The notes under the pieces are model-generated. The model was given only the letters and a program-made list of their open reading frames with translations, was not told where the DNA came from and ran no database searches. Positions 1-18,993 of a stretch of 22,559 bases of DNA are shown one piece after another. Position 1 is the stretch's first letter. Every line of letters starts with the position of its first letter. The position numbers and the translations under genes are program-made. Origin of the DNA: a virus; the IMG/VR virus record IMGVR_UViG_3300032298_000771, positions 1 through 22,559 of that record, one strand, 5' to 3'.

Positions 1-569
1 ACCTCGGCGGCAATAGGCGCACGGGCATCGTTAAGTTCCGCAATGGACTTCTGCGACTGTAGTATTTCATTTTGAAGTCTAACACGCTCTTTCTGCTGGG
101 CTCTTCGCAAAGCCACAGCCTTGTCGGCACCTTTTTCATCTGTTGAGCGGCCCAATACCGAGTCCACTCCCTCATCCATCTGTTTAAGTGCCTTACGGTT
201 TGCTTCAATATTGTCCTTCTGGGATTGAATTTTTTCATCATATATCGCAATCTTGCTTTGTACATCTCCCGATACCAGACTTTGATCCGTGTGTGCTTTG
301 GATAAGAAACCAAAGATGCCCATTGATGTGATCACCATGAGCATGAACACTGCTGGCACCAAATAACACTTCATCAGCAGTCTACAACGGTGCCAGTATT
401 CATGCAACCATACTGTGACAGTGACCTTGGCCACTTCCAGGATACCACCCATGATTATGATGGGAATCACTGCTGATGCAAAAATAGCAGTAAGGCCCAG
501 GATACTGTACCAGGCCGCAACCACGCTCAATGAAAGAGCGGTTAATAGTGTAAAATAACTTAGAAACAT
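1..569 (-). CDS. Membrane and coiled-coil phage protein, partial
   Basis: This gene runs off the left edge of the window, so its C-terminus is missing; about 189 codons are visible. It starts at ATG 569, four bases after the stop of the 105-residue gene. Residues about 4-22 and 25-45 are strongly hydrophobic (MFLSYFTLLTALSLS..., then ILGLTAIFASAVIPIIIMGG), and a third hydrophobic stretch lies near residues 68-88. After that comes a long Gln/Lys/Glu/Ala-rich region with heptad-like spacing, consistent with a coiled coil facing cytoplasm or periplasm. I recognise the layout of three membrane segments followed by a coiled coil from T4-like phages of aquatic bacteria, where the function is unknown. 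No enzyme motif is visible. An AATAAATA stretch (575-582) lies just upstream but is too close to the ATG to be a good late promoter. Confidence 0.8.
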   Translation of the reverse strand, partial: MFLSYFTLLTALSLSVVAAWYSILGLTAIFASAVIPIIIMGGILEVAKVTVTVWLHEYWHRCRLLMKCYLVPAVFMLMVITSMGIFGFLSKAHTDQSLVSGDVQSKIAIYDEKIQSQKDNIEANRKALKQMDEGVDSVLGRSTDEKGADKAVALRRAQQKERVRLQNEILQSQKSIAELNDARAPIAAE

Positions 570-573
570 AGAT

Positions 574-891
574 TTATTTATTGGGTGTTATACGGACTGT
601 GACGGCTAGTTTAACAGCCAACCATGTGGCAATCTTCTCATCAGGCACATCAAACCAAACCCAGAGAGTCTTGCTGTCGTCCCAGATCAGGTTTTCTAAT
701 CGACGTCGAACATGATTTTGACCGCGCCAGTGGTTGGCACCAAACACTTGATTGAGTTCACGGATTACCGCATACCAGACTTTGATGTCACGCAGTTCCA
801 CTTTAATACGGTGCATGACCAAGGGCGTTGCTCTAAGAGAGTCAAGGGATTCAAACATACTCAACGCAGAGGTTTCAATTTCGACAGACAT
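574..891 (-). CDS. Small conserved-looking phage protein, 105 aa
   Basis: I do not recognise a function. I chose ATG 891 (MSVEIETSAL...) because it has a good GAAGGA ribosome binding site; an in-frame GTG at 906 would place that site inside the gene. The protein is Trp- and Arg-rich in the middle (residues about 40-80, with NHWRGQNHVRRR and TLWVWFDVPDE), has no signal peptide and no membrane segment, and looks like a small soluble domain. It is the first gene after a sigma70-like promoter and a 190-base structured leader, and it is followed after four bases by the membrane/coiled-coil gene, so the two probably share a transcript. Confidence 0.7.
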   Translation of the reverse strand: MSVEIETSALSMFESLDSLRATPLVMHRIKVELRDIKVWYAVIRELNQVFGANHWRGQNHVRRRLENLIWDDSKTLWVWFDVPDEKIATWLAVKLAVTVRITPNK

Positions 892-921
892 TGCTATCCT
901 TCTCACTGTTTTTATCTACAA

Positions 922-1010
922 GGCATACTCCCCAGGGTACCAGCCTGGGTTTTGACCTGTTGCCAGGTCTAGCCAGTGTCTCATCCTACGGGATTTATGT
1001 TTCTGATGCC
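922..1010 (-). promoter_or_regulatory. Candidate structured 5' leader RNA element
   Basis: Between the promoter at 1090-1118 and the start codon at 891 lies a leader of about 190 bases. On the transcribed strand it can form an outer stem GGCAU/AUGCC (1010-1006 with 926-922) enclosing three hairpins: AUCC-CGUA-GGAU (994-983), GACCUG-GCAA-CAGGUC with a GNRA-type loop (969-954), and CCCAGG-CUGGUAC-CCUGGG (949-931). The pairing is perfect in each stem, although the outer stem is 5 bp and the first hairpin only 4 bp. A multibranch fold of this kind fits a cis-regulatory RNA or a stable phage RNA. It matches no riboswitch or ribozyme consensus I can recall. The pairing is read directly; the function is inference. 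Confidence 0.45.
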
Positions 1011-1057
1011 ACGGCGCACGGCAGGACCGGTTGCAGATCTATTCCTACAGTGCCCAT
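995..1057 (-). CDS. Possible 20-aa leader peptide
   Basis: In the leader, ATG 1057 opens a 20-codon frame (MGTVGIDLQPVLPCAVASET) ending in TAA at 995-997. An unusually strong purine-rich site AGGGAGGTGGG (1065-1075) lies about 8 bases upstream, better than most ribosome binding sites in the window. An in-frame ATG at 1081 would sit almost on the predicted transcription start. The stop codon falls just before the first leader hairpin, and the frame covers one strand of the outer stem, so ribosome passage could alter folding. The peptide has no run of one amino acid as in classical attenuators. The purine stretch may instead be part of an RNA structure. Confidence 0.25.
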   Translation of the reverse strand: MGTVGIDLQPVLPCAVASET

Positions 1058-1089
1058 TAAACAACCCACCTCCCTGGTCATGCACAGTG

Positions 1090-1118
1090 ATTATACTGCA
1101 ACTGTCAGGCTTTGTCAA
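1090..1118 (-). promoter_or_regulatory. Sigma70-like promoter, TTGACA-17-TATAAT
   Basis: On the minus strand TTGACA (1118-1113) is followed after exactly 17 bases by TATAAT (1095-1090), a full consensus match. Transcription should start near 1083. The -35 box lies immediately beyond the stop codon of the 155-residue gene at 1105-1107, with that stop in the spacer. It would drive the structured leader and the genes at 891 and 569. Confidence 0.8.
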
Positions 1119-1572
1119 CTTGTTTTTTAGTTAATTCGCACACAAGGAGAAACTGCTCGTAGGCCAGTTTCACAGCAGGATTGGTCATGAGTTTATCTGC
1201 TTCCTCTTGCAAGGCCTGGACGCCGGCTTCGGCATGATCTCTGGCACTGCCCATACTCAGTGTGGCCAAGTCATCGCCAAACTCTTTGGCTAACTTTTTC
1301 CAGGCCCGTTGTTGTCCAGAAGTAATAGGAGTTCGCTGTGGACGCATTTCGCTGGCCTTGCTAATAGATCGACAGATAGCATCTTCAGCCACACGGCCAG
1401 CGGCAATCATTGCGGCGTAGTTGGGTTCGATGTTGTACCGGCGACTTTGGCCTCCTGGGTAGCACATCACAAGGTGTGTGCCCTTGGAGAAACTGTCCAA
1501 GTACTCACTATCATACTCACTCACAGGCACATATCTGCGTCCACGTTTTTCGTAGTAGATTTTCTTGGTCAT
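1105..1572 (-). CDS. Conserved T4-like phage protein, 155 aa
   Basis: I recognise the N-terminal text MTKKIYYEKRGRRYVPVSEY as a protein family common in T4-like phages of aquatic bacteria, of unknown function. ATG 1572 is preferred over an upstream in-frame start at 1608 because its ATGA overlaps the stop of the preceding gene and GGGAAG lies upstream. Residues 1-60 are basic and aromatic (YPGGQSRRYNI), the middle has SISKASEMRP, and residues about 95-150 look helical. There is no membrane segment or known catalytic motif. It is the last gene of the coupled ligase, cyclotransferase and 90-residue gene run; the next promoter begins in its stop region. Confidence 0.8.
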   Translation of the reverse strand: MTKKIYYEKRGRRYVPVSEYDSEYLDSFSKGTHLVMCYPGGQSRRYNIEPNYAAMIAAGRVAEDAICRSISKASEMRPQRTPITSGQQRAWKKLAKEFGDDLATLSMGSARDHAEAGVQALQEEADKLMTNPAVKLAYEQFLLVCELTKKQVDKA

Positions 1573-1841
1573 AGATGCACTTCCCAGGCACCTGTTTCTG
1601 GATTCCAATGACGAGTGTCGTATATCCGAAAGCTCATGCTACGACCCAACACGGCCAGTTCTACGGTTAGCCCTGCATGACTTTGTCGCCGAGTGTAACT
1701 GAATTCAAATCCAATCAGTGTGCGGGTTTGCAGTAGTTCTACTTCCCAGGCCTTGTGGTTGGTGATCAGCCCTGATCTGTTCCACAGATTGTCAAAGGAT
1801 CGACCCCAAGGATTGCTCAATCCAAAACTAAGATGAATCAT
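1569..1841 (-). CDS. Conserved T4-like phage protein, 90 aa
   Basis: This small protein (MIHLSFGLSNPWGRSF... RHWNPETGAWEVHL) resembles a family seen in T4-like phages with the pattern NPW..F..LWNR near the start and (F/Y)D.RHWN..(E/T)G.W near the end. The function is unknown. The middle has alternating hydrophobic residues (GFEFSYTRRQSHAGLTVELAV as seen at about residues 44-64), suggesting a small beta-sheet domain. The gene is coupled on both sides by four-base ATGA overlaps, so its expression should follow that of the ligase and cyclotransferase genes upstream. Confidence 0.8.
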   Translation of the reverse strand: MIHLSFGLSNPWGRSFDNLWNRSGLITNHKAWEVELLQTRTLIGFEFSYTRRQSHAGLTVELAVLGRSMSFRIYDTRHWNPETGAWEVHL

Positions 1842-2245
1842 GATAACTCCATTGTGGCAATCAGTTGGTCCACAGGCACACTGTTTTGTACGTAGCCTTC
1901 TGTGACCATGTTGTAGTAGTGACTGCTGGGAGATTGCTCAAATGATTGGTCCACCATTTGATATACCAAGGCAATGTCGCTACCGCGGTCGGTATGCACC
2001 AGCACCGAAAAACGAGTGTAGTGATAGGGATAGCCTTCCAGTGCATCCAAGGCCACTAGGTTGTCTTCTGTGATTTCCCACAGCACACCATAACAATAGT
2101 TTTCTACCGCAGGCTCAATGTCTGCAAAATGGCGGAACACCAAAGCATAGCCTTCAATCCATGCTGGACCCAGACAAACAGCACCCGGGCATCGGGCAGC
2201 CATTTGATCCAAGTTGGTGTTCATGCCATATGCAAAATATTTCAA
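1838..2245 (-). CDS. Gamma-glutamylcyclotransferase-like (AIG2/GGCT) protein
   Basis: The protein has the GGCT fold signatures: N-terminal YFAYGMNTNL (residues 3-12), the central YGVLWEIT (52-59) and LDALEGYP (66-73), with Glu70 in the position of the family's catalytic acid. Members of this family cyclise gamma-glutamyl groups, releasing 5-oxoproline from gamma-glutamyl amino acids, gamma-glutamylamines or glutathione derivatives; the substrate here cannot be read from the sequence. Length (135 aa) is normal for the small bacterial/phage type. The start is TTG at 2245: it overlaps the ligase stop as TTGA and has GGAG 9-10 bases upstream, and no other start would keep the YFAYG motif. Similar proteins occur in other T4-like phages without a known role. 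Confidence 0.85.
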   Translation of the reverse strand: MKYFAYGMNTNLDQMAARCPGAVCLGPAWIEGYALVFRHFADIEPAVENYCYGVLWEITEDNLVALDALEGYPYHYTRFSVLVHTDRGSDIALVYQMVDQSFEQSPSSHYYNMVTEGYVQNSVPVDQLIATMELS

Positions 2246-3630
2246 ACTTTTTCTCCGGCTTCAAAATCTCTAAAACGTAAAAATCTTGGGAATCTTAAAC
2301 TGTATGATCCGTCTTGGTTTTGCGTGACTGCATCAGCTTGGATCTCAACCAAGTGACCAAGAAGAAGATCCCGGCTGCGCCAATACTCATCCCTGTCGCC
2401 ATCAGACAAGCCGCTGCCAACATTAACACAGATATGTCTTCCATTGTCATCTCCTTCACAGATTATAGCACCCAACCGGCCCAGATTGCGACCAGTACCT
2501 TGTTCGAAACCCACAATGTTCAAGTCAACTGTGATTGTGGGTTTCCATTTCATCCACGAGTCAGTGCGTTTGCACAGGTACGGGGCATCCATGCTCTTGA
2601 TCATGATGCCTTCAAAGCCACCTTCCACAGCGGCTTCAGCATAGCGTTGCATGATGTCATGCCCTTCGGCTGTGTCCAAGTCCACATCCAGTCCATTCAT
2701 GATCTGCAAAGGACCATGTTCGGGCAATCGAGCACGAGCACGTTCCAAACTCTCAATTCGTTTGTGTTGTTGTGCGTTGAAGTGACCTTCTTGGAAACTG
2801 GCCAATGGCAACATGTCAAAGATATGATACGTCATGCCTGTGGTCACTGCGTTGCTTTTGCGATGTGCTTGCTTCATCAGCTTCTGAAAACTCTCGCCCA
2901 CAATCTCACCATCCAGCACTACACGTTGATGCACTCTGTGACCACTACCGTCGCCCAGCATGAACTTGGTGCTGTGTTGTTGAATAGCCTCTTCAATTTC
3001 GGGAAAGTTTTCAAACACCTTGCCATTGCGGCTGTACAAGGTAACCGAGCCATCGTCAATCACTGCCAGCACACGCACACCGTCCAGTTTGCACTCCAAG
3101 CGTTTGATGCCTTTCAACTTCTTGGGCTGGTCTGTTGAATCTTGTGCTAACTGGCAAGTGAACACCGGAATACGCCACTCAGTCTTGCCCAGAACTTTGT
3201 TCAAGGTCTTTTCACTGATGCCGCACCGCAGGTCTTTGATTATGACACGCCTACAAAGATTGTTCCATTCCAAACTGTCAAAGCGTTTCATTGTTTCCAG
3301 GATAGCATCTCTAGCACGATGCCCTGAGAATGATCGTGTGCGCAGGCCTTCCAACAAGCCCCAGAACACAGGCCAGGGATTTTCCGCATGCTCAATGCCC
3401 TCGCTCTCAGGCACCTGCTTGACATGGAATGTATAGTAGGGATTGTAGGCTTGGTAGCAGTTGAACAAAAAACACTGTGCGTTGGCACTGCCCAGTTTTG
3501 CTGCCATTAGTGCTTTTTCAATCACTCGTTCTTTGTGCAAGCGACTGTCGGAACTTTCAAGGTCTCTTATCCAATCGGCTGCCACAGTGATACCGTTGAA
3601 TTGTTTGTGTGTGAAGTCAATGCCATTCAT
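2242..3630 (-). CDS. ATP-dependent DNA ligase (T4 gp30-like)
   Basis: This enzyme seals nicks in phage DNA during replication and repair. The nucleotidyltransferase motif I is ECKLDGVRV (residues 179-187) with Lys181 as the likely AMP-accepting lysine. Other motifs follow in order: VLDGEIVGE (motif III/IIIa region, about 263-271), GFEGIMIKS (motif IV, about 338-346) and DSWMKWKP (motif V, about 357-364), then an OB-fold C-terminal domain. Residues 1-160 form the all-helical N-terminal domain typical of T4-type ligases. At 462 aa it is close to T4 gp30 (487 aa). The gene begins 38 bases below a TTGACC-17-TATAAT promoter and heads a four-gene translationally coupled run. Confidence 0.95.
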   Translation of the reverse strand: MNGIDFTHKQFNGITVAADWIRDLESSDSRLHKERVIEKALMAAKLGSANAQCFLFNCYQAYNPYYTFHVKQVPESEGIEHAENPWPVFWGLLEGLRTRSFSGHRARDAILETMKRFDSLEWNNLCRRVIIKDLRCGISEKTLNKVLGKTEWRIPVFTCQLAQDSTDQPKKLKGIKRLECKLDGVRVLAVIDDGSVTLYSRNGKVFENFPEIEEAIQQHSTKFMLGDGSGHRVHQRVVLDGEIVGESFQKLMKQAHRKSNAVTTGMTYHIFDMLPLASFQEGHFNAQQHKRIESLERARARLPEHGPLQIMNGLDVDLDTAEGHDIMQRYAEAAVEGGFEGIMIKSMDAPYLCKRTDSWMKWKPTITVDLNIVGFEQGTGRNLGRLGAIICEGDDNGRHICVNVGSGLSDGDRDEYWRSRDLLLGHLVEIQADAVTQNQDGSYSLRFPRFLRFRDFEAGEKV

Positions 3631-3667
3631 ATATTTACATGCCTTTGAGTTGTTGCATCATGTTTAT

Positions 3668-3696
3668 ATTATAACATTTTAAGAATTATTGGTCAA
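3668..3696 (-). promoter_or_regulatory. Sigma70-like promoter for the ligase operon
   Basis: TTGACC (3696-3691) and TATAAT (3673-3668) are separated by 17 bases, with an extended -10 (TGTTATAAT). The -35 box lies inside the last codons of the upstream radical SAM gene (its last residues and TAA run through TTGACCAATAA). The spacer start AATAATT is shared with the promoter at 6322-6350. Confidence 0.8.
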
Positions 3697-5209
3697 TGAG
3701 TTTTCTACATGCTTCCAGTTCGGGAATGTAGTCCCTTAACCGTACATTTCGGGCGCGATCAAGTTGATCATTGTAGTCAAAGAATGCTCGAAGATCTTGT
3801 AAATTACATTCTGGATCAGTTGAATAATAATTCAGCAAAGAATCAATTGAAGTACGATTGCTTTTTCCATCTATATAATAAGTTTTTGTTTGTTGACAAC
3901 GAGTCATTGACTCCACAACCAATTTGGAGTTAGGATGGTTGTATGCTGATTGCATACCAACGTGATTAATTTGTAAGTAAATTCCTGCATGTGGAAATTC
4001 TTGATCAAGAAATTCATATAATAAATGCAAATTAGTGACATTGTATATTCCAGGAACACAATTAATTGAAATTGTGTGTCCTTGATCTTTTAAAATATGT
4101 GCGTTCTCTATCACAGTATTCCAACTAGATCCCCATCTCCAGTAATCGTTTATTTTTCCATATCCATCCAGACTAACTGAAAAATTCATATTGGTAAAAT
4201 GGTTGGATAGTTTTAAGAACTTAGAACTCAATTTGGCAGCATTTGTTCCAAGAGTAAAATCAAAATCAGTTTGTTTTAGAGAAATACATTGCTCCATAAA
4301 CGACAAAACTTCTGACATCACTGTGGGCTCGCCGCCAGTGAGGTACACTCGTGTAGTCGGAGTCAATTTATCTATGTCCACATGAGCCAAACTTGAATAT
4401 TTGAAAGTTTGCATGTCAGCGTTGGGGTATTCAATTTTGAATTTTTTGTATTCTTGATCTATTAAATGACTATGCTCCGGTTTGCATGAACGACACATCA
4501 AATTACACTTGTTACTCAGGCGTATTTCATAATAATAAGGACGGTCAATTTTGTGAAGATCTTCTATGCTAGAGATATTTAATTTGGATAGCCACTCTTT
4601 GGTTTCAAATTGTCGATAACTTTCAATGCCTTTTCTTTCATAATTGTAGCAGTACTCACAATGGTCAGGCAACATTTTTCCAGCCAACATGTCCTGTCTA
4701 ATTTTTGTATAGTTGGAATCTGTTTTCCAGTCCTTTAATTCTTTAATTGTTGTGACTTTTTTTAGAGATCTGGCACAAACATTAAGGTGCCCTTGTTCTT
4801 CTATTAAGTTTATCCAAGGGTAGATGCAAAAACTTTTATTGTCCTCGAGCATCTGAGAAAATGTCAGATATTGTTTGATGTTGTCATTGTGTTGATAAAC
4901 TGTATCATACCCTAGTTGTTCTAACTCTAACATAATTTTGTAAGTAGACAACATGGGTTTCCAATGACTCCATTGGGAGGCTGGTTGATCAAAAAATATT
5001 ATTTGATTAAAACATTTTGCTAGTTCGACTATGTTGCCAAAAGGTAAATCTAATATAGTGGTATGATAATAACCGTGATGTATGGGCACCAAAGTAGAAT
5101 CTGTTATCAACCCATGATTGACCGTGTTGTTTTCCTTTGCCAATCTAGTAGTACGATGATCTGTGTCTTCGTCGTTGTTACCCAAGCATAAAATCTTTTT
5201 ATCAAACAT
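3686..5209 (-). CDS. Radical SAM protein with N-terminal twitch/SPASM-like cysteines
   Basis: The radical SAM cluster motif is CNLMCRSC (Cys235, 239, 242 from ATG 5209), followed by the GGEP motif (YLTGGEP) and NINFSVSLDG-like strands of the TIM barrel. Upstream, Cys128 (FCIYPW), Cys145, and Cys184/187 (HCEYC) form a SPASM/twitch-like set that could bind an extra Fe-S cluster; in most enzymes this domain is C-terminal. Residues 1-110 (KILCLGNNDEDTD..., FFDQP) form a further N-terminal domain that I recall from other T4-like phages. Substrate unknown. ATG 5209 is preferred to GTG 5233, which would overlap the previous gene. The gene is AT-rich (17/60 GC in 4021-4080) unlike its neighbours. Confidence 0.85.
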   Translation of the reverse strand: MFDKKILCLGNNDEDTDHRTTRLAKENNTVNHGLITDSTLVPIHHGYYHTTILDLPFGNIVELAKCFNQIIFFDQPASQWSHWKPMLSTYKIMLELEQLGYDTVYQHNDNIKQYLTFSQMLEDNKSFCIYPWINLIEEQGHLNVCARSLKKVTTIKELKDWKTDSNYTKIRQDMLAGKMLPDHCEYCYNYERKGIESYRQFETKEWLSKLNISSIEDLHKIDRPYYYEIRLSNKCNLMCRSCKPEHSHLIDQEYKKFKIEYPNADMQTFKYSSLAHVDIDKLTPTTRVYLTGGEPTVMSEVLSFMEQCISLKQTDFDFTLGTNAAKLSSKFLKLSNHFTNMNFSVSLDGYGKINDYWRWGSSWNTVIENAHILKDQGHTISINCVPGIYNVTNLHLLYEFLDQEFPHAGIYLQINHVGMQSAYNHPNSKLVVESMTRCQQTKTYYIDGKSNRTSIDSLLNYYSTDPECNLQDLRAFFDYNDQLDRARNVRLRDYIPELEACRKLIDQ

Positions 5210-5226
5210 TGGGTACTTATTGGCAC

Positions 5227-5652
5227 TTACCACGAACTATTGTAAAACACTTTGAGTCCCAAGAACATTTCTGCACGGGCTTCCTGGATAAACTTCAAAT
5301 CGCTGGGCTTGTAGTAATCATCAGCACCGTCCCCAAAGAAGAAACCAGACGTTGCGGGCAGTTGATCGTTTTGTACTGCATACTCCAAGTTGTCCAGGTC
5401 CTCATACGTGAGTTCAAGTTCAACACCGTTGAAGTTGTCTGTTTCTCGTAGTTCATTGCCTTCACGTTGAAGCCACAGTTGTGCCATCCAGCCATGCAGG
5501 TTAGGATGCTTGCGCCAGTAGGCCAGTTCACGTGGGCGGTTGACATTGGGGTTGCGATGTTCTTTATGATCTGGATCCCACTCTGACCCTTCGTAAAATT
5601 CTGCTTGCTGGCCTGCCTTTGCGGCCACGTATGCGTACATGTCTAGTCCCAT
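5227..5652 (-). CDS. MGLDMY-family conserved phage protein, 141 aa
   Basis: The N-terminus MGLDMYAYVA and the internal AYWRKHPNLHGWM are hallmarks of a family widespread in phages and prophages, sometimes misannotated as phosphoglycerate kinase; the true function is unknown. I chose ATG 5652 because the family always begins at this MGLDMY and because TAATATG joins it to the 41-residue gene with GGGGG just upstream; an in-frame ATG at 5688 would add 12 residues of unrelated sequence. The C-terminal half (ELELTYEDLDNLEYAVQNDQ) is acidic and likely helical. No membrane segment. The protein is probably cytoplasmic and lies just before the second radical SAM gene, though no functional link can be read. 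Confidence 0.85.
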   Translation of the reverse strand: MGLDMYAYVAAKAGQQAEFYEGSEWDPDHKEHRNPNVNRPRELAYWRKHPNLHGWMAQLWLQREGNELRETDNFNGVELELTYEDLDNLEYAVQNDQLPATSGFFFGDGADDYYKPSDLKFIQEARAEMFLGLKVFYNSSW

Positions 5653-5653
5653 A

Positions 5654-5779
5654 TTACCCCCAAATACTTTGAACAATGGCTTGCACAAACACCGCCATAC
5701 TCACAAAGAATATTGCGGGTTGAAGAACAATGAACCATAAAAATTGTAAAATAAAATCTGGATTTAAATATTGTTTCAT
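5654..5779 (-). CDS. Small single-span membrane protein, 41 aa
   Basis: A short open frame from ATG 5779 to TAA 5654 encodes MKQYLNPDFILQFLWFIVLQ followed by PAIFFVSMAVFVQAIVQSIWG. Residues about 9-36 are almost entirely hydrophobic and could span the membrane once or twice as a hairpin broken at Pro21. The frame fills the gap exactly between the 72-residue gene (12 bases upstream) and the MGLDMY gene (TAATATG junction), which supports it being real. The ribosome binding site is weak (GACAGAGAC). There is no evidence that it is a holin, but size and hydrophobicity would allow a small membrane regulator or toxin-like peptide. Confidence 0.65.
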   Translation of the reverse strand: MKQYLNPDFILQFLWFIVLQPAIFFVSMAVFVQAIVQSIWG

Positions 5780-5791
5780 TGTTTGTCTCTG

Positions 5792-6010
5792 TCAATCAAG
5801 TGGAACATTTTTCATTGGCTCGGTGCCCATCCAGTGTGCCTGCGTGACACACACGCCTCGGTACTGTACACCCATTGGGTGCTCGCCTTTTTTGGGCAGT
5901 GTTTTGATTGCTCGTTCGCATGCAGTTTTGGTGGGCATGGTCACAGGCACTTTGTCCATGAAGTTACCACCAGGGCTGATAAAGGCCACAAGTAAGATCC
6001 ATTCATTCAT
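5792..6010 (-). CDS. Small phage protein with hydrophobic N-terminus, 72 aa
   Basis: ATG 6010 is chosen because GGAGG lies seven bases upstream and the TAATG junction overlaps the previous stop; an upstream start at 6046 would lose this site. The protein begins MNEWILLVAFISPGG, a hydrophobic segment that could be a weak signal or membrane anchor, then has a basic centre (PTKTACERAIKTLPKKGEHP) and GVCVTQAHWMG with the second cysteine. The two-cysteine pattern (residues about 32 and 53) could form a disulfide if exported. Similar short phage proteins with VCV.QAHW near the end are familiar but uncharacterised. Confidence 0.7.
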   Translation of the reverse strand: MNEWILLVAFISPGGNFMDKVPVTMPTKTACERAIKTLPKKGEHPMGVQYRGVCVTQAHWMGTEPMKNVPLD

Positions 6011-6291
6011 TATGCGGCCTCCAACATGTTGGCTGGCACCTTCCACAGCGTCACACCGTCTTTGACTGTGACATACTTGATGGCAACCTTTGTGACTGTG
6101 CCAGTTACTGTGACACCACGTTTGATGCTGTGAAACTTTACTGTGTCACCTTTGGTGAATGAGCGGATCTTTACCGCACGAAGCTGGGCACGAGCATACT
6201 GTACCGCATCATTGATGCTGTTGAGTTGTTCGTTTGTAAAATTGCTGAACATGATAGAAGTGTTGACTTCTTGAATTGTTGCGTATGTCAT
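6010..6291 (-). CDS. Small phage protein with SH3/KOW-like C-terminal domain, 93 aa
   Basis: The N-terminal half is helical (NFTNEQLNSINDAVQYARAQL). The C-terminal half has the pattern KGDTVKFHS...GVTVTGTVTKVAIKYVTVK...WKVPANML, alternating hydrophobic strands typical of a small SH3-like barrel; I recognise this layout from many uncharacterised proteins of T4-like phages. A nucleic-acid or protein-binding role is possible but not shown. The gene has an AAAAGGAGCC ribosome binding site and follows the promoter at 6322-6350, and it starts the run 93 aa, 72 aa, 41 aa, MGLDMY, radical SAM. Confidence 0.8.
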   Translation of the reverse strand: MTYATIQEVNTSIMFSNFTNEQLNSINDAVQYARAQLRAVKIRSFTKGDTVKFHSIKRGVTVTGTVTKVAIKYVTVKDGVTLWKVPANMLEAA

Positions 6292-6295
6292 TTCG

Positions 6296-6379
6296 GGCTC
6301 CTTTTGTTACAATATGTCCATATTATAGCATTTTGGCAATTATTGGTCAACCACCAAAACTGTAATACTCAAGTATTAC
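6296..6379 (-). repeat. Gene-boundary cassette, copy A
   Basis: This stretch matches 6655-6738 with at most short indels. Both contain, in transcription order, a hairpin overlapping the upstream stop codon, TTTTGGTGG, TTGACC-17-TATAAT, and an AGGAGCC ribosome binding site. The core GGTTGACC and GCTATAATAT is identical in both. Confidence 0.75.
6322..6350 (-). promoter_or_regulatory. Sigma70-like promoter, TTGACC-17-TATAAT
   Basis: TTGACC (6350-6345) and TATAAT (6327-6322) are 17 bases apart, with an extended -10 (TGCTATAAT). The predicted start near 6315 leaves a leader of about 24 bases carrying the AAGGAGCC site of the 93-residue gene. It lies inside boundary cassette A. Confidence 0.85.
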
Positions 6380-6380
6380 A
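6361..6380 (-). terminator. Weak hairpin terminator, cassette A
   Basis: TGTAATAC-TTGA-GTATTACA forms a perfect 8-bp stem with a four-base loop on the transcribed strand, followed by GTTTT. The stop codon of the 91-residue gene is within the stem. The stem is AT-rich and the T run short, so termination may be inefficient. Confidence 0.45.
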
Positions 6381-6651
6381 TGGCCCAGAATGATTCTGAG
6401 CTGGGTGAACAGAAGTGCGGTGTGTTGACATCTTCCTCAAACTTCTCACCTGTCATGATGTTGACACGTTCAACCATGCGTGGTTTGTAGTACTTGGTGG
6501 CAATGATGCTGAGTTGGTCCACACTCCACCCTGCTTTGCGGCACAGGCGTGTTCGGGTGGCACGTGCGGCGCCGAAAGTTTTGTACGCACGGGTTTTCAT
6601 GGGACCATCTGTCACAATAAGTCCAGTACCTTTTGAAACAATGTAATACAT
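6376..6651 (-). CDS. Small conserved phage protein, 91 aa
   Basis: The protein MYYIVSKGTGLIVTDGP... has a basic centre (KTFGAARATRTRLCRKAGW) and ends in a distinctive block, YYKPRMVERVNIMTGEKF followed by NTPHFCSPSSESFWAM. I recall this C-terminal block from T4-like phages of aquatic bacteria; function unknown. It is small, soluble and probably expressed early, since it is the only gene between two sigma70-like promoters and has an AAAAAGGAGCC-type ribosome binding site. Its stop codon lies within the hairpin of boundary cassette A. Confidence 0.8.
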   Translation of the reverse strand: MYYIVSKGTGLIVTDGPMKTRAYKTFGAARATRTRLCRKAGWSVDQLSIIATKYYKPRMVERVNIMTGEKFEEDVNTPHFCSPSSESFWAM

Positions 6652-6681
6652 CTTGGCTCCTTTTTGCTACTCTATGTCTAT

Positions 6682-6710
6682 ATTATAGCAAAATGGCGAT
6701 TTTTGGTCAA
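6682..6710 (-). promoter_or_regulatory. Sigma70-like promoter, TTGACC-17-TATAAT
   Basis: TTGACC (6710-6705) and TATAAT (6687-6682) are 17 bases apart with an extended -10 (TGCTATAAT). The predicted start near 6675 gives a short leader with the GGAGCC site of the 91-residue gene. It lies inside boundary cassette B, just after the end of the virion-like gene. Confidence 0.85.
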
Positions 6711-6720
6711 CCACCAAAAA

Positions 6721-6738
6721 GTACTACTTGAGTATTAC
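6721..6738 (-). terminator. Weak hairpin terminator, cassette B
   Basis: GTAATAC-TCAA-GTAGTAC folds with one mismatch in a 7-bp stem and is followed by TTTTT on the transcribed strand. It overlaps the stop codon of the 282-residue gene and would close the virion-gene transcript before the next promoter. Confidence 0.45.
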
Positions 6739-7583
6739 ACCAATGCCCGTGCTTGTGCAGGGGTATATTCACTGTCGCTCAGCGTGGCCTGTGGTGGTAC
6801 CGCATTGGGCAGTTGTGGAACATCGTTGTCCGCTTTGAGTCCAACAGCATTGATGCCTGCGGTGTTGCGTCCTTCACGTAGCGCACCCACCATAGCCTGA
6901 CCTGATTGGTTGGCTGTGTTGGCAATAGCTTCCAAAAATTCAGCAGCCATACCTGTTTGTGTTTCTTGCCCGTAACCGGCCAAGGCAGGAATAAAAGCAG
7001 TGATGGGCAACTGAGCACCGGCTGTGAGTGTGGCATAGTTGATACTTGCTTGTGTTTGAAATGCAGCCTCGTTGGCACTGTGCTGGGTCATTGCTGTCCA
7101 GGCAGTGTTCAATGTTGTGGTTGCAGTGCCCATGGCAGTGATGGCTGTGCCGATCTCAGCGTCAGCGGCTGTGATCAATACCACCAACGCCGCATCATAA
7201 GATGCATATGGATTTCCTGTGTTGTAAGGTGCCGGAAGAGCGATTGCACCCGGCAACCCATACACATCTGTGATGAGATTTACCATGTAAGAATACACAG
7301 TATCGAGTGTGGTTAGTGTACCGGCGGTGAGTTGCGCTGAGATGGTCGAAGTTACAGAGGTCAAATAATTGTTGTAAGGAATACCGGCTGCTGATCCAAA
7401 AAAATCTGTGGTCAGGTATGTGCCATTGGGTCCTGATCCTTTGGCCAAATTGGTTTGATAATATGTGGCCACTGCGGCAGGCACAGGAGTTGTGGTGTTG
7501 GCCACCAAGGGCAGACCTTTTAGTGTGCCTAGTTTTTGTGAATATGCTGCCGTTTCGGCTGCTGTTTGTGCCAGTGTGGTCAT
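6735..7583 (-). CDS. Ala/Thr-rich virion-like protein, 282 aa
   Basis: I do not recognise a named family. The protein is dominated by Ala, Thr, Leu and Asn with very few Lys, and has long low-charge stretches (TAADAEIGTAITAMGTATTT at about residues 138-157) that look like amphipathic or coiled helices. The C-terminal 60 residues (ALREGRNTAGINAVGL, then NDVPQLPNAVPPQATLSDSE) are Pro-rich and probably extended. ATG 7583 overlaps the stop of the 414-residue gene (ATGA), so the two proteins are translated together and likely belong to the same virion part. Position downstream of a PAAR-like protein suggests baseplate or spike-tip association; this is inference. Confidence 0.75.
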   Translation of the reverse strand: MTTLAQTAAETAAYSQKLGTLKGLPLVANTTTPVPAAVATYYQTNLAKGSGPNGTYLTTDFFGSAAGIPYNNYLTSVTSTISAQLTAGTLTTLDTVYSYMVNLITDVYGLPGAIALPAPYNTGNPYASYDAALVVLITAADAEIGTAITAMGTATTTLNTAWTAMTQHSANEAAFQTQASINYATLTAGAQLPITAFIPALAGYGQETQTGMAAEFLEAIANTANQSGQAMVGALREGRNTAGINAVGLKADNDVPQLPNAVPPQATLSDSEYTPAQARALV

Positions 7584-8824
7584 TGTAGTATTGCCGCCAG
7601 TTGTTGTGTGGTTGTGCCTGTGATGCCTTTGATCTGTTGGAACGCAATTTGCAATGCACGATTTGCCGCAGCATTGGCTTGCGGAATAATTTTGGCCAAC
7701 TCATCACACCCTGTGGGACTAACAGCCCCTGAATTTAAAATAGGTACTATAACAGAATTCACTGCACCAGTTTCGTCGTATATCAACACAGGACCATTGG
7801 GTGTGGGCAATGTTAGACTGCTAAAACTTGTGGGAAACAGTTTTATAGGATTCAACAGGTCTGCCATGGTTTCAATACCAGGTGTGGTACAGTCTAGTAT
7901 GTCTAACACATCTTGTAAGCAGTTACTAGTAGAGGCAGTGTTATCATCTTGCACCACACCTGCATTCCTTATTCTAGTAAGCACATTACCAAGACTGCCG
8001 GTGATTTTGGTAGTACGAGTGATTGTAGTAAATGCAGGATATGCACGTTTTTGTAAAGTATCAAATTGATTTTGTGTAAGTCCATTCTGGTTGTACAGGC
8101 TTTGCACATTGTCATTCACAAGATCTGAAATATCTTGGTCAGTCAATCCTTCAGATTTTAATGCGGCAGTTACACAAGGAGTGGACCCATTCAACATGTT
8201 GCCACATTCAGCTAAATTTTGCAACAATCCAGCAGGGGTGCCAATACGTTCTAATCGAGTGAACTTGATTGCACAACCAATGTTGGCAAGATCTGCACCA
8301 AATGCCGGAAATGCCAAATTGACTTGTGCTATGTCACCTGTGATCAAATTGTTCATGTTGGTGAATGTGGGACCAAGATAATCATCGCTGTTGGCATTGA
8401 CTGCACTGTTGATAATATTGTTTGTGAGACTGATGTATCCTTGTGCGGCACCAAATGCCTGAGCAAACTTGCCAAAGTCTCCACCGCCCAAATAAGTGCT
8501 GGCTGATGTAGAAATAGTTGTGGCATAACCAGCGTTGCCCACATTCCAGGAAACATTGCTGGGTACACTGTCTCCCAGAGCAGGGCAGTAATTGCCTGCA
8601 ACATTGGCACCTAATGTTTTGAGATTGGTTATTGTGCCTGCACTGATACCAAGACTGACATTGCTTGTGGCTTGGCTGATAGTGTATAACAAGTTGGCTA
8701 TGGGTGCCAATGCATTGTAACTGGCAACACTGCTGGCCAATTGGGTATTGGCTGTGATGGCATTGCCTGCGTAAAATCCCACACCTGCTGTGAGTTGTAG
8801 TGGTGTTGCTGTTGACTCTGCCAT
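7580..8824 (-). CDS. Virion-like protein downstream of PAAR, 414 aa
   Basis: ATG 8824 (MAESTATPLQLTAGV...) is chosen because TAATG joins it to the PAAR-like gene; an upstream in-frame start at 8872 would overlap that gene by 48 bases. The protein is rich in Asn, Thr, Ala, Leu with seven or more Cys, and has alternating helical and beta-like blocks, including TPNGPVLIYDETGAV and FDTLQKRAYPAFTTI. No enzyme motif is visible. It follows a spike-tip gene and precedes another Ala/Thr-rich gene, so a tail or baseplate component is the best guess. I recall proteins of this length after PAAR genes in aquatic T4-like phages but cannot name the family. Confidence 0.75.
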   Translation of the reverse strand: MAESTATPLQLTAGVGFYAGNAITANTQLASSVASYNALAPIANLLYTISQATSNVSLGISAGTITNLKTLGANVAGNYCPALGDSVPSNVSWNVGNAGYATTISTSASTYLGGGDFGKFAQAFGAAQGYISLTNNIINSAVNANSDDYLGPTFTNMNNLITGDIAQVNLAFPAFGADLANIGCAIKFTRLERIGTPAGLLQNLAECGNMLNGSTPCVTAALKSEGLTDQDISDLVNDNVQSLYNQNGLTQNQFDTLQKRAYPAFTTITRTTKITGSLGNVLTRIRNAGVVQDDNTASTSNCLQDVLDILDCTTPGIETMADLLNPIKLFPTSFSSLTLPTPNGPVLIYDETGAVNSVIVPILNSGAVSPTGCDELAKIIPQANAAANRALQIAFQQIKGITGTTTQQLAAILQ

Positions 8825-9108
8825 TATGCTGCTCTCACTGTGCTGGAACCTGCCACACGACTGTGACCACAAGTATCACTGTCGCCATCACGTATGACTG
8901 GATTTCCACCAGCACGTACTGTGCCCGACCCTCCTGCGGTCACTGCTGAACAGTGTATGCCACAACCAGGTTGCCCACAACAAGGATGTGGTGTTACTGA
9001 AATACCAGGTATAACAATAGGACGACCGTTCACACGCACAGAAGCCACACCTGATGTGTTTACACCCCCTGCCCCATTAGGATCACCCTGTCGTTGTACT
9101 GCTGGCAT
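8824..9108 (-). CDS. PAAR-like spike-tip protein (T4 gp5.4-like)
   Basis: PAAR proteins cap the central spike of contractile tails and sharpen it for membrane puncture; T4 gp5.4 is the phage example. Here MPAVQRQGDPNGAGG, VRVNGRPIVIPG, GSGTVRAGGNPVIRDGD and SSTVRAA show the short Gly/Pro beta-repeats of the family, with Val-Arg-Val-Asn-Gly and Val-Arg-Ala-Gly-Gly units. A Cys/His-rich centre (HPCCGQPGCGIHCSAV, residues about 41-56, plus Cys and His near residue 80) could bind the structural metal ion seen in PAAR tips. At 94 aa it is normal length. AAGGAA lies ahead of ATG 9108. It overlaps the end of the SGNH-like gene by 26 bases. Confidence 0.85.
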   Translation of the reverse strand: MPAVQRQGDPNGAGGVNTSGVASVRVNGRPIVIPGISVTPHPCCGQPGCGIHCSAVTAGGSGTVRAGGNPVIRDGDSDTCGHSRVAGSSTVRAA

Positions 9109-10027
9109 ACGGTTCCTTGTTCAAATAAGATTGAATTCTGTTGAAATATTCTGTGGCAATCATGTTGTGAATTGTATCATCGTGTATGTGATATGTAGGT
9201 TCACTCATAAAATCACACCTTGGTAGATACCAAAAGTTTATGTTTGTTTGGTAAGGCTCTAGTTCTGCTGATATCATTTTTGCGCAGTCTTTATTTAGGC
9301 GTAGAATTTTTTCTTCAACTAGCCCGCCTAGACTAAAAACCAATCCAACACCTTTGGCAATTATTTTGTAAAACTTACCTTCAAGCAATGCAAAATCTCG
9401 ATTCCAATGTATATTGATATCAAATTCTAGTTCAAAGAACTGTTTTGAATATTCATATATTTCGTCAGAAAATCTTGGCTCCAATTGTGTATTTTTTTCT
9501 AGTCTAGATTTTTTTTCAAAATATAAGGACACAGGGCCCATTGTTTCATACAGCGGTTTTTCAGCAAAATATTCTGGCAGATATGAGCGACCCACGTGAT
9601 CTAATAATTCACTTCCAAGAAACATTCCATTAACCATGGTATCATGCAAAAACGGCTCGTGCAGCATGGCATGATAACTTTCATCAATTATACCTTTATG
9701 TTTCCAAAAATACTTGCTGACTCTGCGGCATCCTCGGGTAGGCATCAGAGTTTTGAATATTTCTGTGCAATTAATAATGATAAAAATAGTAGCTGGATCG
9801 GCCAGTGCTTTTTCAATCTGCAAAGAGATTGCAAAATTGGTACATGACGGTATGGCAACATTATGAATTTTGGCGCCTGGTAAAATACGAGCCACTTGTT
9901 GTTTTAATTTAGCCGACCAATGAGACCTGGCGTTAGGATCTGGTGAAACGTAACTAAAACTATCACCACAGATATACACAGCATTTTTTTGCTGTGACTC
10001 TGTTGTTGACAGTTTTCTTTTCTTCAC
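9083..10027 (-). CDS. SGNH/GDSL-like hydrolase domain protein
   Basis: The protein has the spaced blocks of SGNH hydrolases: block I CGDSFSY with Ser23 as likely nucleophile, block II VAIPSCTN (58-65), block III IIINCTE with Asn86, and block V HDDTIHN with Asp284 and His287 near the C-terminus. This superfamily cleaves ester bonds, often on acylated sugars or lipids; in a phage it could deacetylate surface glycans, but the substrate is unknown. It is 314 aa, with a long middle insert between blocks III and V. The start is GTG 10027, since no ATG exists before block I. The gene is AT-rich (17/60 GC in 9421-9480) unlike the genes around it, suggesting later insertion. Confidence 0.7.
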   Translation of the reverse strand: MKKRKLSTTESQQKNAVYICGDSFSYVSPDPNARSHWSAKLKQQVARILPGAKIHNVAIPSCTNFAISLQIEKALADPATIFIIINCTEIFKTLMPTRGCRRVSKYFWKHKGIIDESYHAMLHEPFLHDTMVNGMFLGSELLDHVGRSYLPEYFAEKPLYETMGPVSLYFEKKSRLEKNTQLEPRFSDEIYEYSKQFFELEFDINIHWNRDFALLEGKFYKIIAKGVGLVFSLGGLVEEKILRLNKDCAKMISAELEPYQTNINFWYLPRCDFMSEPTYHIHDDTIHNMIATEYFNRIQSYLNKEPYASSTTTG

Positions 10028-10030
10028 TAA

Positions 10031-10330
10031 TTATCCCATTAAGATTTTACTGCGCACAGGCTTGATACCTGTTGTGGCTTCCAAATAACTGTCCCCAACG
10101 TCTTCACGCACAGGAGCAATCATGGCCACGCTAGATATATTTACCGTGACTTCTTGCTCGGGATCTGCAGTGAACAAACTATTCATCAACTGTATACCTT
10201 GCTGGCCGGGCACCACTGCCACGGGCTTGCTCAGTGTGTAAGTACTGCTGTCAAATGCTGTGACCTTGGCCACAATCTCTTCACCATAGCCCATGCGCAT
10301 GGTGTATGTTTTTCCTATTTCAACGCTCAT
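10031..10330 (-). CDS. Small conserved phage protein, beta-barrel-like, 99 aa
   Basis: The protein starts MSVEIGKTYTMRMGYGEEIV with strands of alternating hydrophobics (VAKVTAFDSSTYTLSKPVAVV) and ends DVGDSYLEATTGIKPVRSKI. I recall this pattern, strands up to a VxPGQQGIQL turn and a DSYLE.TTGI tail, from T4-like phages of aquatic bacteria; it looks like a small Sm/SH3-like barrel and has no known function. ATG 10330 has AAAAAGGAAC upstream and overlaps the methyltransferase stop (ATGA), so it is translated with that gene. Confidence 0.75.
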   Translation of the reverse strand: MSVEIGKTYTMRMGYGEEIVAKVTAFDSSTYTLSKPVAVVPGQQGIQLMNSLFTADPEQEVTVNISSVAMIAPVREDVGDSYLEATTGIKPVRSKILMG

Positions 10331-10932
10331 TCTAGTTCCTTTTTAACTATTGCCAACTGATAATTTACCAAGCCCAACTTGAGCCTGTGATAAAACATGT
10401 TTACAAATGCATCGATGCTTTGTTTGCAACGACCCAAATAGTGCTGATCATCTTCCCACAAGTAGTCATCAAACAGCATGACACCACCGGGACGCAACAA
10501 TCCAAAACACATCACGGCATCTGCTAGAGCATCATCTGCATTGTGACTGCCATCCACGTAGATGAAATCATATTGTCTTTTGTCCACAATCAGTTGTGCC
10601 AGTGCAGAGAAACTCATGTTGGCATGTACTTCAAGTGTTTGTCCTGACTTTTTGACTTCGGCTGTGTTGGCACGGAAGCGTTGTTCAATACTGCGATCTT
10701 CGGGTATTGAATCACCACTGAAAGCTGTGACCGGACGATCAGCAAATGGATCAACGCAAGTGATTGTGCCTGTGTCACTCAGCATGTTTTCCAACATCCA
10801 GCAAGTGCTGCGGCCTTCATGGCTGCCTATTTCTAGTATGCTATCAACTGTTTTTTGTTTTTGTAAGTAGTTGGTGATGTAATCAAAGTTGACCAGTGCA
10901 TTGCTGAACCAGTCAGATGTGAATTGTGGCAT
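10327..10932 (-). CDS. Class I SAM-dependent methyltransferase, 201 aa
   Basis: The SAM-binding motif I is ILEIGSHEGRST (residues 32-43), followed by TCVDPF (58-63, acidic post-I residue Asp61), YDFIYVDGSHNADDALAD (121-138) and LLRPGGVMLFDDY (145-157), a layout of the Methyltransf_24 family, many members of which act on sugars or small molecules. Substrate is unknown. The whole protein is one Rossmann-like domain with no target-recognition insert, which argues against a DNA methyltransferase. It sits between glutaredoxin (TAATG overlap) and the 99-residue gene (ATGA overlap), at the end of the ribonucleotide reductase block. Confidence 0.85.
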   Translation of the reverse strand: MPQFTSDWFSNALVNFDYITNYLQKQKTVDSILEIGSHEGRSTCWMLENMLSDTGTITCVDPFADRPVTAFSGDSIPEDRSIEQRFRANTAEVKKSGQTLEVHANMSFSALAQLIVDKRQYDFIYVDGSHNADDALADAVMCFGLLRPGGVMLFDDYLWEDDQHYLGRCKQSIDAFVNMFYHRLKLGLVNYQLAIVKKELE

Positions 10933-11153
10933 TACATCAACCTTTGGCGCAGTTCGTTAAATCCGCCCACATACTCATCATCCAAAAAGATCTGGGGTAC
11001 TGATCTGGCAGTTGGTACTGCTTCTAATAATTGCTCACGAGTCCAGTCTTGACTGATATTGCGTACTTCGTAGTCAATGCCTTTCATTTCCAATAAACCT
11101 TTGGCTTGTTCGCAGAAGGCGCATTGGTCTTTTGACCATACTATGGCTTTCAT
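10932..11153 (-). CDS. Glutaredoxin
   Basis: A minimal glutaredoxin of 73 aa. The redox motif is Cys11-Ala-Phe-Cys14 after a first beta strand (MKAIVWSK), the cis-proline loop is SVPQIF with Pro53, and the glutathione-binding GG pair is at 63-64 (YVGGFNEL). It most likely reduces the disulfide formed in the phage class I ribonucleotide reductase at each turnover, using host glutathione; T4 carries NrdC for the same job. It lies in the same transcript as nrdA and nrdB and is joined to its neighbours by ATGA and TAATG overlaps. The CAFC centre differs from the common CPYC and would change the redox potential. Confidence 0.93.
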   Translation of the reverse strand: MKAIVWSKDQCAFCEQAKGLLEMKGIDYEVRNISQDWTREQLLEAVPTARSVPQIFLDDEYVGGFNELRQRLM

Positions 11154-11377
11154 GTTGTTTTCCTTTTGGGCTCTACTTTAATAATGCATGGTGAATCAAT
11201 ACGATCCGACATGGCTTTGACACCGTCTGCCCAGGCATGCATCTTAACTGACAACCAGTCTAAAAATTGCACTCTCAGGCAGCGATTCTTTTCTTCAATC
11301 CGTTCAAACTTTTGCATCACGTTGCGAATGTTCTGAAAGTCTTCAGAATCTCTTATTGGAGTATTGGGTTTGTACAT
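11150..11377 (-). CDS. Small helical protein of the nrd block, 75 aa
   Basis: I do not recognise it. ATG 11377 (MYKPNTPIRDSEDFQNIRNV) has AAAAGGAAAA just upstream; an in-frame start at 11425 would overlap nrdB by 38 bases and lacks a site. The protein is highly charged and almost all predicted helix (VMQKFERIEEKNRCLRVQF, residues about 20-38), ending in a basic tail (VEPKRKTT). Position between nrdB and glutaredoxin, with an ATGA overlap to the latter, suggests co-expression with ribonucleotide reduction, but nothing in the sequence shows a role in it. Confidence 0.7.
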   Translation of the reverse strand: MYKPNTPIRDSEDFQNIRNVMQKFERIEEKNRCLRVQFLDWLSVKMHAWADGVKAMSDRIDSPCIIKVEPKRKTT

Positions 11378-11387
11378 ATTTTTCCTT

Positions 11388-12500
11388 TTATAAATTTGGT
11401 AATTCGTCGTAGTCCAGTTGATCACTCATGACGCCGATAACATAGTTAGTTGATTCATTCTCTTGCAGTGCAGTTTGTTTCTTCGACGTGTCCACATGCT
11501 TCATGAACCAAGGGATAGGTGTGCTTCTAGGTGCAGGTTCCTGATATTTGACGCCAATTTCTTTGAGTGCGCCCACTGCTGTGTAGTCCACAAAGTCTTT
11601 GAGAATGTTGGCGTTGAGTCCAATCACAGGACCTTTCTGGAACAAGTAATCGGCCCAGGCCTTTTCCTCACGGATCACATCTAGGTACAACTGATACACT
11701 TCGGCTTCGCATTCTGCCTTGGCTTGTGCAAAACGTGGATCTTCTTTCACAACCTGGTTGATGATCCAAGCAGTCCAGTCCTTGTGCAGGATTTCGTCTT
11801 GCAGGATCAGGCTGATGATGTTGCCGTTGCCAATAAAGATACGGTTCTCAACCATGGCCAAACTTGTGGCAAAACTTACCATGAAGCGGAATGCTTCCAG
11901 TGCGTATGACGCATTCAGTGCCAACCAAATTGCTCGGATATGGTCTTGTTCGCGAACCATACCTGTCATTTCACTGCTGAGTTCTTTATGGCAATTTATT
12001 CTGTGTAGTTCGTCGTAATATCGGCCAACACTTGACGCCATGTCCACAATCTCTTTGGTGTCATGAATGGTGTTGAACACATCCTTGGGCACGTTGTAGA
12101 TGTTGCGAATGATATGACTGTAGCTACGACTGTGAATGTTGGTTTCAAAGAAACTCCAGTTGTACATCAGTGCTTCCAGTTCAGGAATGCCCACCACAGG
12201 AGTAAACACCTGTGCTGGTCCGCGCCCTTGTAAACTGTCAAGGGCTGTTTGACGCAACAGGTTGGATGTAAAGATATGTTTCACAGTGTCACTTGATTCT
12301 TTGAAGTCGTTGGCATCTTTGGTCAAGGATACTTCTTCAGGAATCCAAAAAAAGCCACGTGCCTCTTGTTCAAACTTCACAAGTTTATTGTACTTGACTT
12401 CTTCAAAGCGTTGGATAGTAACTGGACCTGCTGGATCAAGAAACATCTTGCGATGTAAGTAATCTGTTTTGGTGGCTAGGTTGTATTGTGCTTGGCTCAT
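11388..12500 (-). CDS. nrdB: Ribonucleotide reductase class I beta subunit
   Basis: This subunit holds the diiron centre and tyrosyl radical that start ribonucleotide reduction in NrdA. Visible ligands by comparison with E. coli NrdB: Asp88 (LDSLQGR), His123, Glu202 (LEAFRF), Glu236 and His239 (DEILH); the radical tyrosine is Tyr127 (HSRSY). At 370 aa the length is normal (E. coli 376). The first helix ligand region reads FFETNIHSRSY, with Glu119 four residues before His123 where other class I enzymes have three (ExxH), so Glu119 may not be the exact equivalent of E. coli Glu115. The C-terminal tail (DYDELPNL) should bind NrdA. ATG overlaps the PRMT-like gene as ATGA. Confidence 0.95.
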   Translation of the reverse strand: MSQAQYNLATKTDYLHRKMFLDPAGPVTIQRFEEVKYNKLVKFEQEARGFFWIPEEVSLTKDANDFKESSDTVKHIFTSNLLRQTALDSLQGRGPAQVFTPVVGIPELEALMYNWSFFETNIHSRSYSHIIRNIYNVPKDVFNTIHDTKEIVDMASSVGRYYDELHRINCHKELSSEMTGMVREQDHIRAIWLALNASYALEAFRFMVSFATSLAMVENRIFIGNGNIISLILQDEILHKDWTAWIINQVVKEDPRFAQAKAECEAEVYQLYLDVIREEKAWADYLFQKGPVIGLNANILKDFVDYTAVGALKEIGVKYQEPAPRSTPIPWFMKHVDTSKKQTALQENESTNYVIGVMSDQLDYDELPNL

Positions 12501-13411: not shown

Positions 13412-13413
13412 GA

Positions 13414-15735: not shown

Positions 15736-15741
15736 CTTATC

Positions 15742-16167
15742 CTAACGAATTTTTTGTTTTATTTGTTCTTGACTGACTTGCCGCCGTGGTTTTGACTTTC
15801 CCAGACTGATATTTACGACTTGATCAGGATCCCAATTCAGTATATATTTCTCTTGAGCCACCAGGACTAAATTGTCGCTTTGATACTCGATCATCTGAGC
15901 ATCTTGCATGTCTTCACGGTCTAGCATGCTAATAGTATACATGATTCCCAGGCCTCTTGCAACCGGACAATACTGGTTGTCACTCAATAACTGCCAAGGA
16001 TCGGGCCAATCTGCTTGGTCGTCCCAGTGTAAATGGTAGGCAGTCCAAGGAGTTTGGAACCACCATTGATTGATTTTAATCAAAGCAGGCTCTGGGCTCA
16101 GTTGCCGACATTGCTGTCTCAACTGTGCCCAACTCTCCAGCCGCTCACTGAAGTCTCTAGGCCACAT
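15742..16167 (-). CDS. Conserved T4-like phage protein, 141 aa
   Basis: The start MWPRDFSERLESWAQLRQQC, the centre INQWWFQTPWTAYHLHWDD..WPDPWQLL, and GLGIMYTISMLDRED match a family I recall from T4-like phages of cyanobacteria and other aquatic bacteria, where it often sits near tail-fibre genes. It is Trp-rich, single-domain and has no membrane segment. A role in virion assembly or fibre attachment is plausible only from its place directly after the tail spike gene (5 bases) and before nrdA (6 bases). The C-terminal 25 residues are strongly basic (GKSKPRRQVSQEQIKQKIR). Confidence 0.8.
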   Translation of the reverse strand: MWPRDFSERLESWAQLRQQCRQLSPEPALIKINQWWFQTPWTAYHLHWDDQADWPDPWQLLSDNQYCPVARGLGIMYTISMLDREDMQDAQMIEYQSDNLVLVAQEKYILNWDPDQVVNISLGKSKPRRQVSQEQIKQKIR

Positions 16168-16172
16168 TGTTT

Positions 16173-17924: not shown

Positions 17925-17943
17925 AGTGTGATTCCTTGAGGTA

Positions 17944-18985: not shown

Positions 18986-18993
18986 AATAATAT

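Follow-up and report, generated by a model that had tools for sequence, protein, structure and literature searches.

Translational riboswitches with a pseudoknot close to the Shine-Dalgarno sequence include the preQ1 and SAM-II types; linkage of an RNA to just one gene family is commoner among autogenous leaders than among riboswitches. In phages T4 and RB69, the gene 32 leader carries a pseudoknot for autogenous control, and the protein represses its own translation; the T4 element is a pseudoknot of about 28 nt followed by a UUAAA-rich stretch, located about 67 nt before the AUG (PMC535899, PMC3014915). The autogenous leader of rpsO, the gene of S15, is a pseudoknotted translational operator bound by its own product (named in PMC3014915). 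Comparative genomics has provided further structured candidate leader RNAs of cyanophages, namely manA, wcaG and PhotoRC-II, of which manA and wcaG occur in T4-like cyanophages ahead of several kinds of metabolic genes (PMC2864571).

The leader RNA described in this study belongs to the known kind of structured regulatory leaders and, within the open-access literature, is a new RNA family of uncultivated tailed phages. The proposal of an earlier note on this DNA, that the leader could be a new cis-regulatory RNA, is probably correct, since homologous leaders covary and match nothing in Rfam.

Locus and promoter

The window, i.e., the whole stretch of DNA analyzed, is a viral record of 22,559 bases, and the named genes on its minus strand encode a DNA ligase, ribonucleotide reductase subunits, an exonuclease and virion proteins. 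On this strand, 213 bases (892-1104) lie between the stop codon of the upstream gene and the ATG at 891; together with covariation far beyond chance, this intergenic space bears out the claim of a structured non-coding leader of about 190 bases. Positions in the RNA (n) are numbered as 1084 minus the window position. The features of the locus are as follows:

1108-1572, minus strand: upstream gene, 155 aa
1090-1118, minus strand: promoter, with -35 TTGACA (1118-1113), a 17-nt spacer and -10 TATAAT (1095-1090)
892-1083, minus strand: structured leader RNA (n 1-192), with 98 aligned homologues, covariation and no Rfam match
897-901, minus strand: Shine-Dalgarno AAGGA (n 183-187), read from the sequence
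574-891, minus strand: 105-aa gene, of no known family

The promoter is a perfect sigma-70-type promoter (12/12) and the sole 12/12 match within window positions 1-20000. Its -10 element ends 7 nt ahead of the leader RNA, and from this usual distance transcription would start at about 1083 (n 1). Among the homologous leaders, the promoter is 12/12 in 67/98 and at least 11/12 in 79/98. As it is a consensus host-type promoter, strong RNA synthesis by the host polymerase would be expected.

A recurring promoter of a different type was also observed in the window, where three 47-nt repeats (3650-3696, 6304-6350 and 6664-6710) each carry a minus-strand TTGACC-17-TATAAT. By eye, the proteins encoded at 20711-21112 and 18662-18985 resemble the iron-sulphur assembly factors IscU and IscA/ErpA. 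A search for tRNAs and tmRNAs found none.

Distribution of the leader

From IMG/VR, 98 distinct leader homologues were obtained and aligned, each directly 5' of the same gene family. The first covariance model, applied to 60 loci (384 kb), gave one match per locus, always just before the 105-aa gene, and the second, applied to 99 sources, gave the 98 leaders upstream of the gene plus one chance match at E 0.91. Each of 14 phage contigs (104-364 kb) contained one credible copy, with an extra match at E 0.29, covering 42 bases, in one of them; one credible copy per phage fits a cis element. A DNA pattern of the leader core matched 52 viral contigs and had no match in bacterial and archaeal contigs. 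With a loose core pattern, among the matches listed, the true ones all precede the same gene family, and over half of the new loci were judged to be chance matches, as they lacked the promoter and the gene. The leader was not found in the four regions examined of cultured phages that have a relative of the downstream gene.

The sole relative found with the gene but without the leader and promoter is L326 (780-1080), a natural deletion in which the upstream stop overlaps the ATG (TAATG) and the gene lacks its first codons; the RNA is therefore dispensable for the persistence of the gene. In the L269-L277 group, extra sequence separates the leader from the annotated ATG. Members of this group also have a much shortened P2 arm (see below) and a first-codon-like sequence out of frame ahead of the annotated ATG.

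The search against Rfam 15 gave no gathering-threshold match in the window, none for the leader even at E<=10 and none at E<=3 for ten divergent relatives. This outcome of the check suggested in the earlier note is consistent with a new RNA.

Fold of the leader RNA

The elements of the fold, derived from the alignment of the leaders, are as follows:

990-1067, minus strand: P2 arm (n 17-94)
n 17-20/90-94, minus strand: P2 base helix; pairs 17-94 and 18-93 formed in 97/98 and 97/97 leaders, with GC, UA and AU types
n 21-26/81-86, minus strand: P2a; pair 24-83 formed in 97/97 leaders
n 28-30/70-72, minus strand: P2b, from pair counts in the 98-leader alignment
n 31-34/65-68, minus strand: P2c, from the same counts
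n 36-41/58-63, minus strand: P2d, from the same counts
1026-1040, minus strand: P2d loop (n 44-58), with two palindromes, AGAUCU and ACCGGU
1007-1010, minus strand: closing stem, 5' strand GGCA (n 74-77), pseudoknotted with P2a
922-925, minus strand: closing stem, 3' strand UGCC (n 159-162)
970-978, minus strand: SD-proximal pseudoknot helix, 5' strand (n 106-114)
904-918, minus strand: SD-proximal pseudoknot helix, 3' strands (n 166-168 and 176-180)
954-969, minus strand: P3 hairpin with GCAA loop (n 115-130; stem 115-119/126-130)
931-949, minus strand: P4 hairpin (n 135-153; stem 135-140/148-153)

All pairing elements named in the earlier note are present: GGCAU/AUGCC (n 74-78/158-162), the 6-bp stem with the GCAA loop (n 115-130) and CCCAGG/CCTGGG (n 135-153). 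Four features go beyond it: the promoter with its perfect match, the base helix of P2, a pseudoknot helix that extends to the Shine-Dalgarno, and the crossing of P2 by the closing stem. The closing stem had been proposed to enclose three hairpins. The stem itself holds, since pairs 74-162 and 77-159 have changed on both sides in some clades: the L111 clade has AGCA/UGCU and the L269-L277 group GGCU/AGCC in place of GGCA/UGCC, with few exceptions to this compensatory pattern (L423, L319); however, it crosses P2, i.e., it forms a pseudoknot.

The covariation indicates a double pseudoknot. One of its pairings joins the UGCC strand to GUGGCA, an internal loop of P2; the other joins the strand ahead of the Shine-Dalgarno to the segment that follows GGAUGAGAC. 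The latter, SD-proximal helix comprises 106-110/176-180 plus 112-114/166-168, and its pairs 112-168, 113-167 and 114-166 are formed in 290/294 cells with CG, UA and AU types. The two hairpins are paired in 98.8% (P3) and 97.5% (P4) of cells, with both sides changed in 5/5 and 6/6 pairs, respectively. Weakly supported pairs are 21-86 (41/94 paired), 41-58 (32/83) and 107-179 (77/93). Amid these variable helices, the junction sequences GUGGCA and AAAUCC..GUAGGAUGAGAC are conserved. The 3' strand of the pseudoknot stops 2 nt before the Shine-Dalgarno in the window leader and 1-2 nt before it in the tabulated leaders; in the folded state, the helix is separated by 1-2 nt from the Shine-Dalgarno and by about 12 nt from the AUG.

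Other candidate pairings were tried and rejected. A helix at the 5' end (n 1-5/157-161), which seemed invariant and formed part of the first model, competes with the closing stem, and its pair 3-159 is disrupted in 16/98 leaders. A hairpin in CCCGUAGG was superseded by the P2 base helix, and a kissing pair between the P2 and P4 loops (ACCGG with CUGGU) fails in the L097, L139 and L146 sequences. The 20-codon frame noted earlier (995-1057, minus strand; n 27-89) and the strong site AGGGAGGTGGG (n 9-19) ahead of it do exist in the window; its bases are held by P2 pairing, and as a peptide it is not conserved.

Covariation and folding energy

The covariation among homologous leaders that the earlier note had put forward as a check was found in two alignments. 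With 60 leaders aligned by sequence only (MAFFT), standard pairs filled 88.7% of pair cells, 223 cells were double-changed versus 22-63 in slid controls, and 0/500 shuffles attained the observed values. In the model-fitted alignment of 98 leaders, which leans towards the structure, 94.1% of 4139 pair cells were standard and both-side changes occurred at 40/46 pairs; 831 cells, a count that has the one chance match as a row, were double-changed versus 63-113 when slid.

The SD-proximal pseudoknot was further evaluated by a strand-swap test with RNAduplex on 20 leaders less than 80% identical, in which the segment after GGAUGAGAC was combined with the strand ahead of the Shine-Dalgarno. Cognate strands gave -7.1 kcal/mol versus -5.1 kcal/mol for swapped strands (permutation p about 5e-5), and the pairings read from the leaders include CACUGU/ACAGUG, AGAC/GUCU, AGG/CCU, UCUCUG/CAGAGA and GUCCUU/AAGGAC. 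A tree-based G-test with two nulls over all column pairs placed only 117-128, 24-83 and 18-93 at E<=0.05, because one deep split correlates unlinked columns; pairs 108-178 and 109-177 were near 0.1, with an equal score for an off-register neighbour. The helices other than those of these three pairs rest on the pair counts and the strand-swap test.

The folding energy of the window leader was not beyond chance (z -0.18; 78/200 shuffles fold as well), and energy minimization of the window sequence yields another fold (-56.3 kcal/mol) than the supported one (nested part, -36.7 kcal/mol). Judged by comparison among the leaders, a conserved pseudoknotted structure is nearly certain.

Palindromic P2d loop

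A perfect palindrome of at least 6 bases was present in the P2d loop of about 85% of divergent representatives with a loop of at least 10 nt, versus 19% of shuffled loops (0 of 500), in statistics that ignore ancestry. The palindromes vary in sequence (AGAUCU, AUCGAU, GUCGAC, CCCGGG, CCUAGG, UCCGGA and AUCUCGAGAU), and L172 and the L269-L277 group have only a short loop or none. These palindromes suggest self-association of the RNA.

The 105-aa protein and the following gene

For the 105-aa protein, IMG/VR contains 31 close relatives, and profile searches give 199-207. A translated search of 50,697 phage records gave no match, a collection of bacterial and archaeal genomes yielded no confirmed relative, and sequence searches of Pfam, PHROGs, PADLOC and PDB gave no significant relative; these searches do not identify the protein as gp32, the ssDNA-binding protein. 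An AlphaFold2 model (mean pLDDT 80; below 50 at residues 1-14 and 16-18) predicts a compact alpha/beta fold of the order beta-alpha-alpha-beta-alpha-beta, and the protein of the window is basic (pI 9.2). Foldseek searches of this model against PDB and viral structures gave none below E 0.001 (best 0.13 and 0.011).

At the end of the 105-aa gene (window 574-582 and the relatives inspected), the sequence of the last codons plus the stop is AATAAATAA or GGTAAATAA; it resembles a late promoter of the T4 type that would serve the gene behind it, and the final lysine of the protein is nearly invariant. The next gene encodes a protein of about 460-510 aa in nearly all loci compared, with a weak DUF4407 match below the cut-off in 2/3 proteins scanned. 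In the window, the start of this gene of about 500 aa lies at 3-569; its product is probably membrane-spanning and is distantly related to proteins of Pelagibacter phage Mosig and Xanthomonas phage XacN1.

Proposed mechanism and alternatives

Whatever the trigger, the leader probably acts in cis to control translation initiation of the 105-aa gene. This role is supported by covariation, one copy per phage, gene linkage, the conserved promoter and the fixed position of the pseudoknot, and, as the RNA ends at the ribosome-binding site, it is probably a switch that sets the amount of the 105-aa protein. Observations that speak against it are the differing minimum-energy fold of the window leader, the leaderless gene of L326, the extra sequence ahead of the annotated ATG in L269-L277 and the Foldseek result for the protein. 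After its transcription from the host-type promoter, the RNA would fold into the P2 arm, the two hairpins and the double pseudoknot. Because the SD-proximal helix is so close to the Shine-Dalgarno, its formation should close, and its melting open, ribosome entry to the 105-aa gene. Accumulated 105-aa protein may bind its own leader, which would constitute autogenous control; we regard such binding tentatively as the most likely candidate for the trigger. A small-molecule ligand is the next possibility, and the conserved core that links P2 with the pseudoknot might just as well be a binding pocket for one.

The riboswitch explanation shares this cis-regulatory step and differs in the trigger: the conserved core would bind a small molecule made or depleted in infection, and the pseudoknot would gate the Shine-Dalgarno. 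It agrees with the conserved junctions, the variable helices and the pseudoknot adjoining the Shine-Dalgarno, but we consider it rather unlikely, since the RNA is found with one gene family only and in one copy per phage, one pattern scan and one protein scan gave no bacterial copies, and the 105-aa gene has no recognizable metabolic role. The leader also does not precede several genes of one pathway, a typical riboswitch trait that is not strictly required.

The leader might also be a stable small RNA acting in trans, or part of an RNA-protein particle with the 105-aa protein, possibly as a dimer via the palindromic loop. The stable phage RNA considered in the earlier note could account for the RNA having its own consensus promoter, a compact fold and a palindromic loop in about 85% of long-loop representatives. 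However, no terminator was called between the RNA and the gene, and the long loop has been lost in L269-L277 and L172. A free stable RNA is also made improbable by the constant position of the pseudoknot strand, 1-2 nt ahead of the ribosome-binding site. A combination of ideas, in which a phage-only RNA is both a gated leader and a homodimer via the P2 loop, and in which either the 105-aa protein or a ligand reflecting the infection state closes the double pseudoknot over the ribosome-binding site, is likewise a long shot; if true, such a dimerizing gated leader would be a self-associating phage RNA switch without known relative.

An RNA antitoxin paired with a protein toxin, as in type III toxin-antitoxin systems or AbiF, would explain a structured RNA with a strong promoter directly 5' of a small orphan gene, yet it is very unlikely, as the 105-aa protein has no PADLOC match, no terminator was called between RNA and gene, and no tandem repeats were seen in the leader. 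The attenuator with a 20-codon leader peptide, to which the Shine-Dalgarno-like AGGGAGGTGGG and the ATG in the window had pointed, can practically be dismissed, since the ATG is present in 70/98 leaders, frames opening at its position vary from 2 to 100 codons (17 leaders have 2) without a conserved peptide, and terminator prediction gave none within the leader or immediately downstream of it.

Comparison with known systems

A cis-acting leader, our preferred reading, can be set beside the systems introduced above. Like manA, wcaG and PhotoRC-II, it is a structured candidate leader RNA of phages, whereas its sequence and structure differ, with no Rfam match here; it adds an RNA family absent from Rfam 15. 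With the preQ1 and SAM-II types, it shares a conserved core and a pseudoknot partner strand adjoining the Shine-Dalgarno, and it differs from them in having no family match and a single gene family. As in rpsO, a pseudoknot lies in the 5' leader, and the autogenous binding known there is proposed here, but rpsO is a bacterial ribosomal protein gene, and no relation to it was found by sequence or model.

The RNA also provides a first handle on an orphan phage protein with conserved regulation. As in gene 32 of T4 and RB69, a phage 5' leader carries a pseudoknot ahead of the ribosome-binding site; unlike in T4, the leader here has about 190 nt, two pseudoknots, a branched P2 and a helix 1-2 nt before the Shine-Dalgarno, and it precedes an unrelated gene. 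This large, strongly covarying leader, with about 200 relatives of its gene, represents a testable second, more elaborate case.
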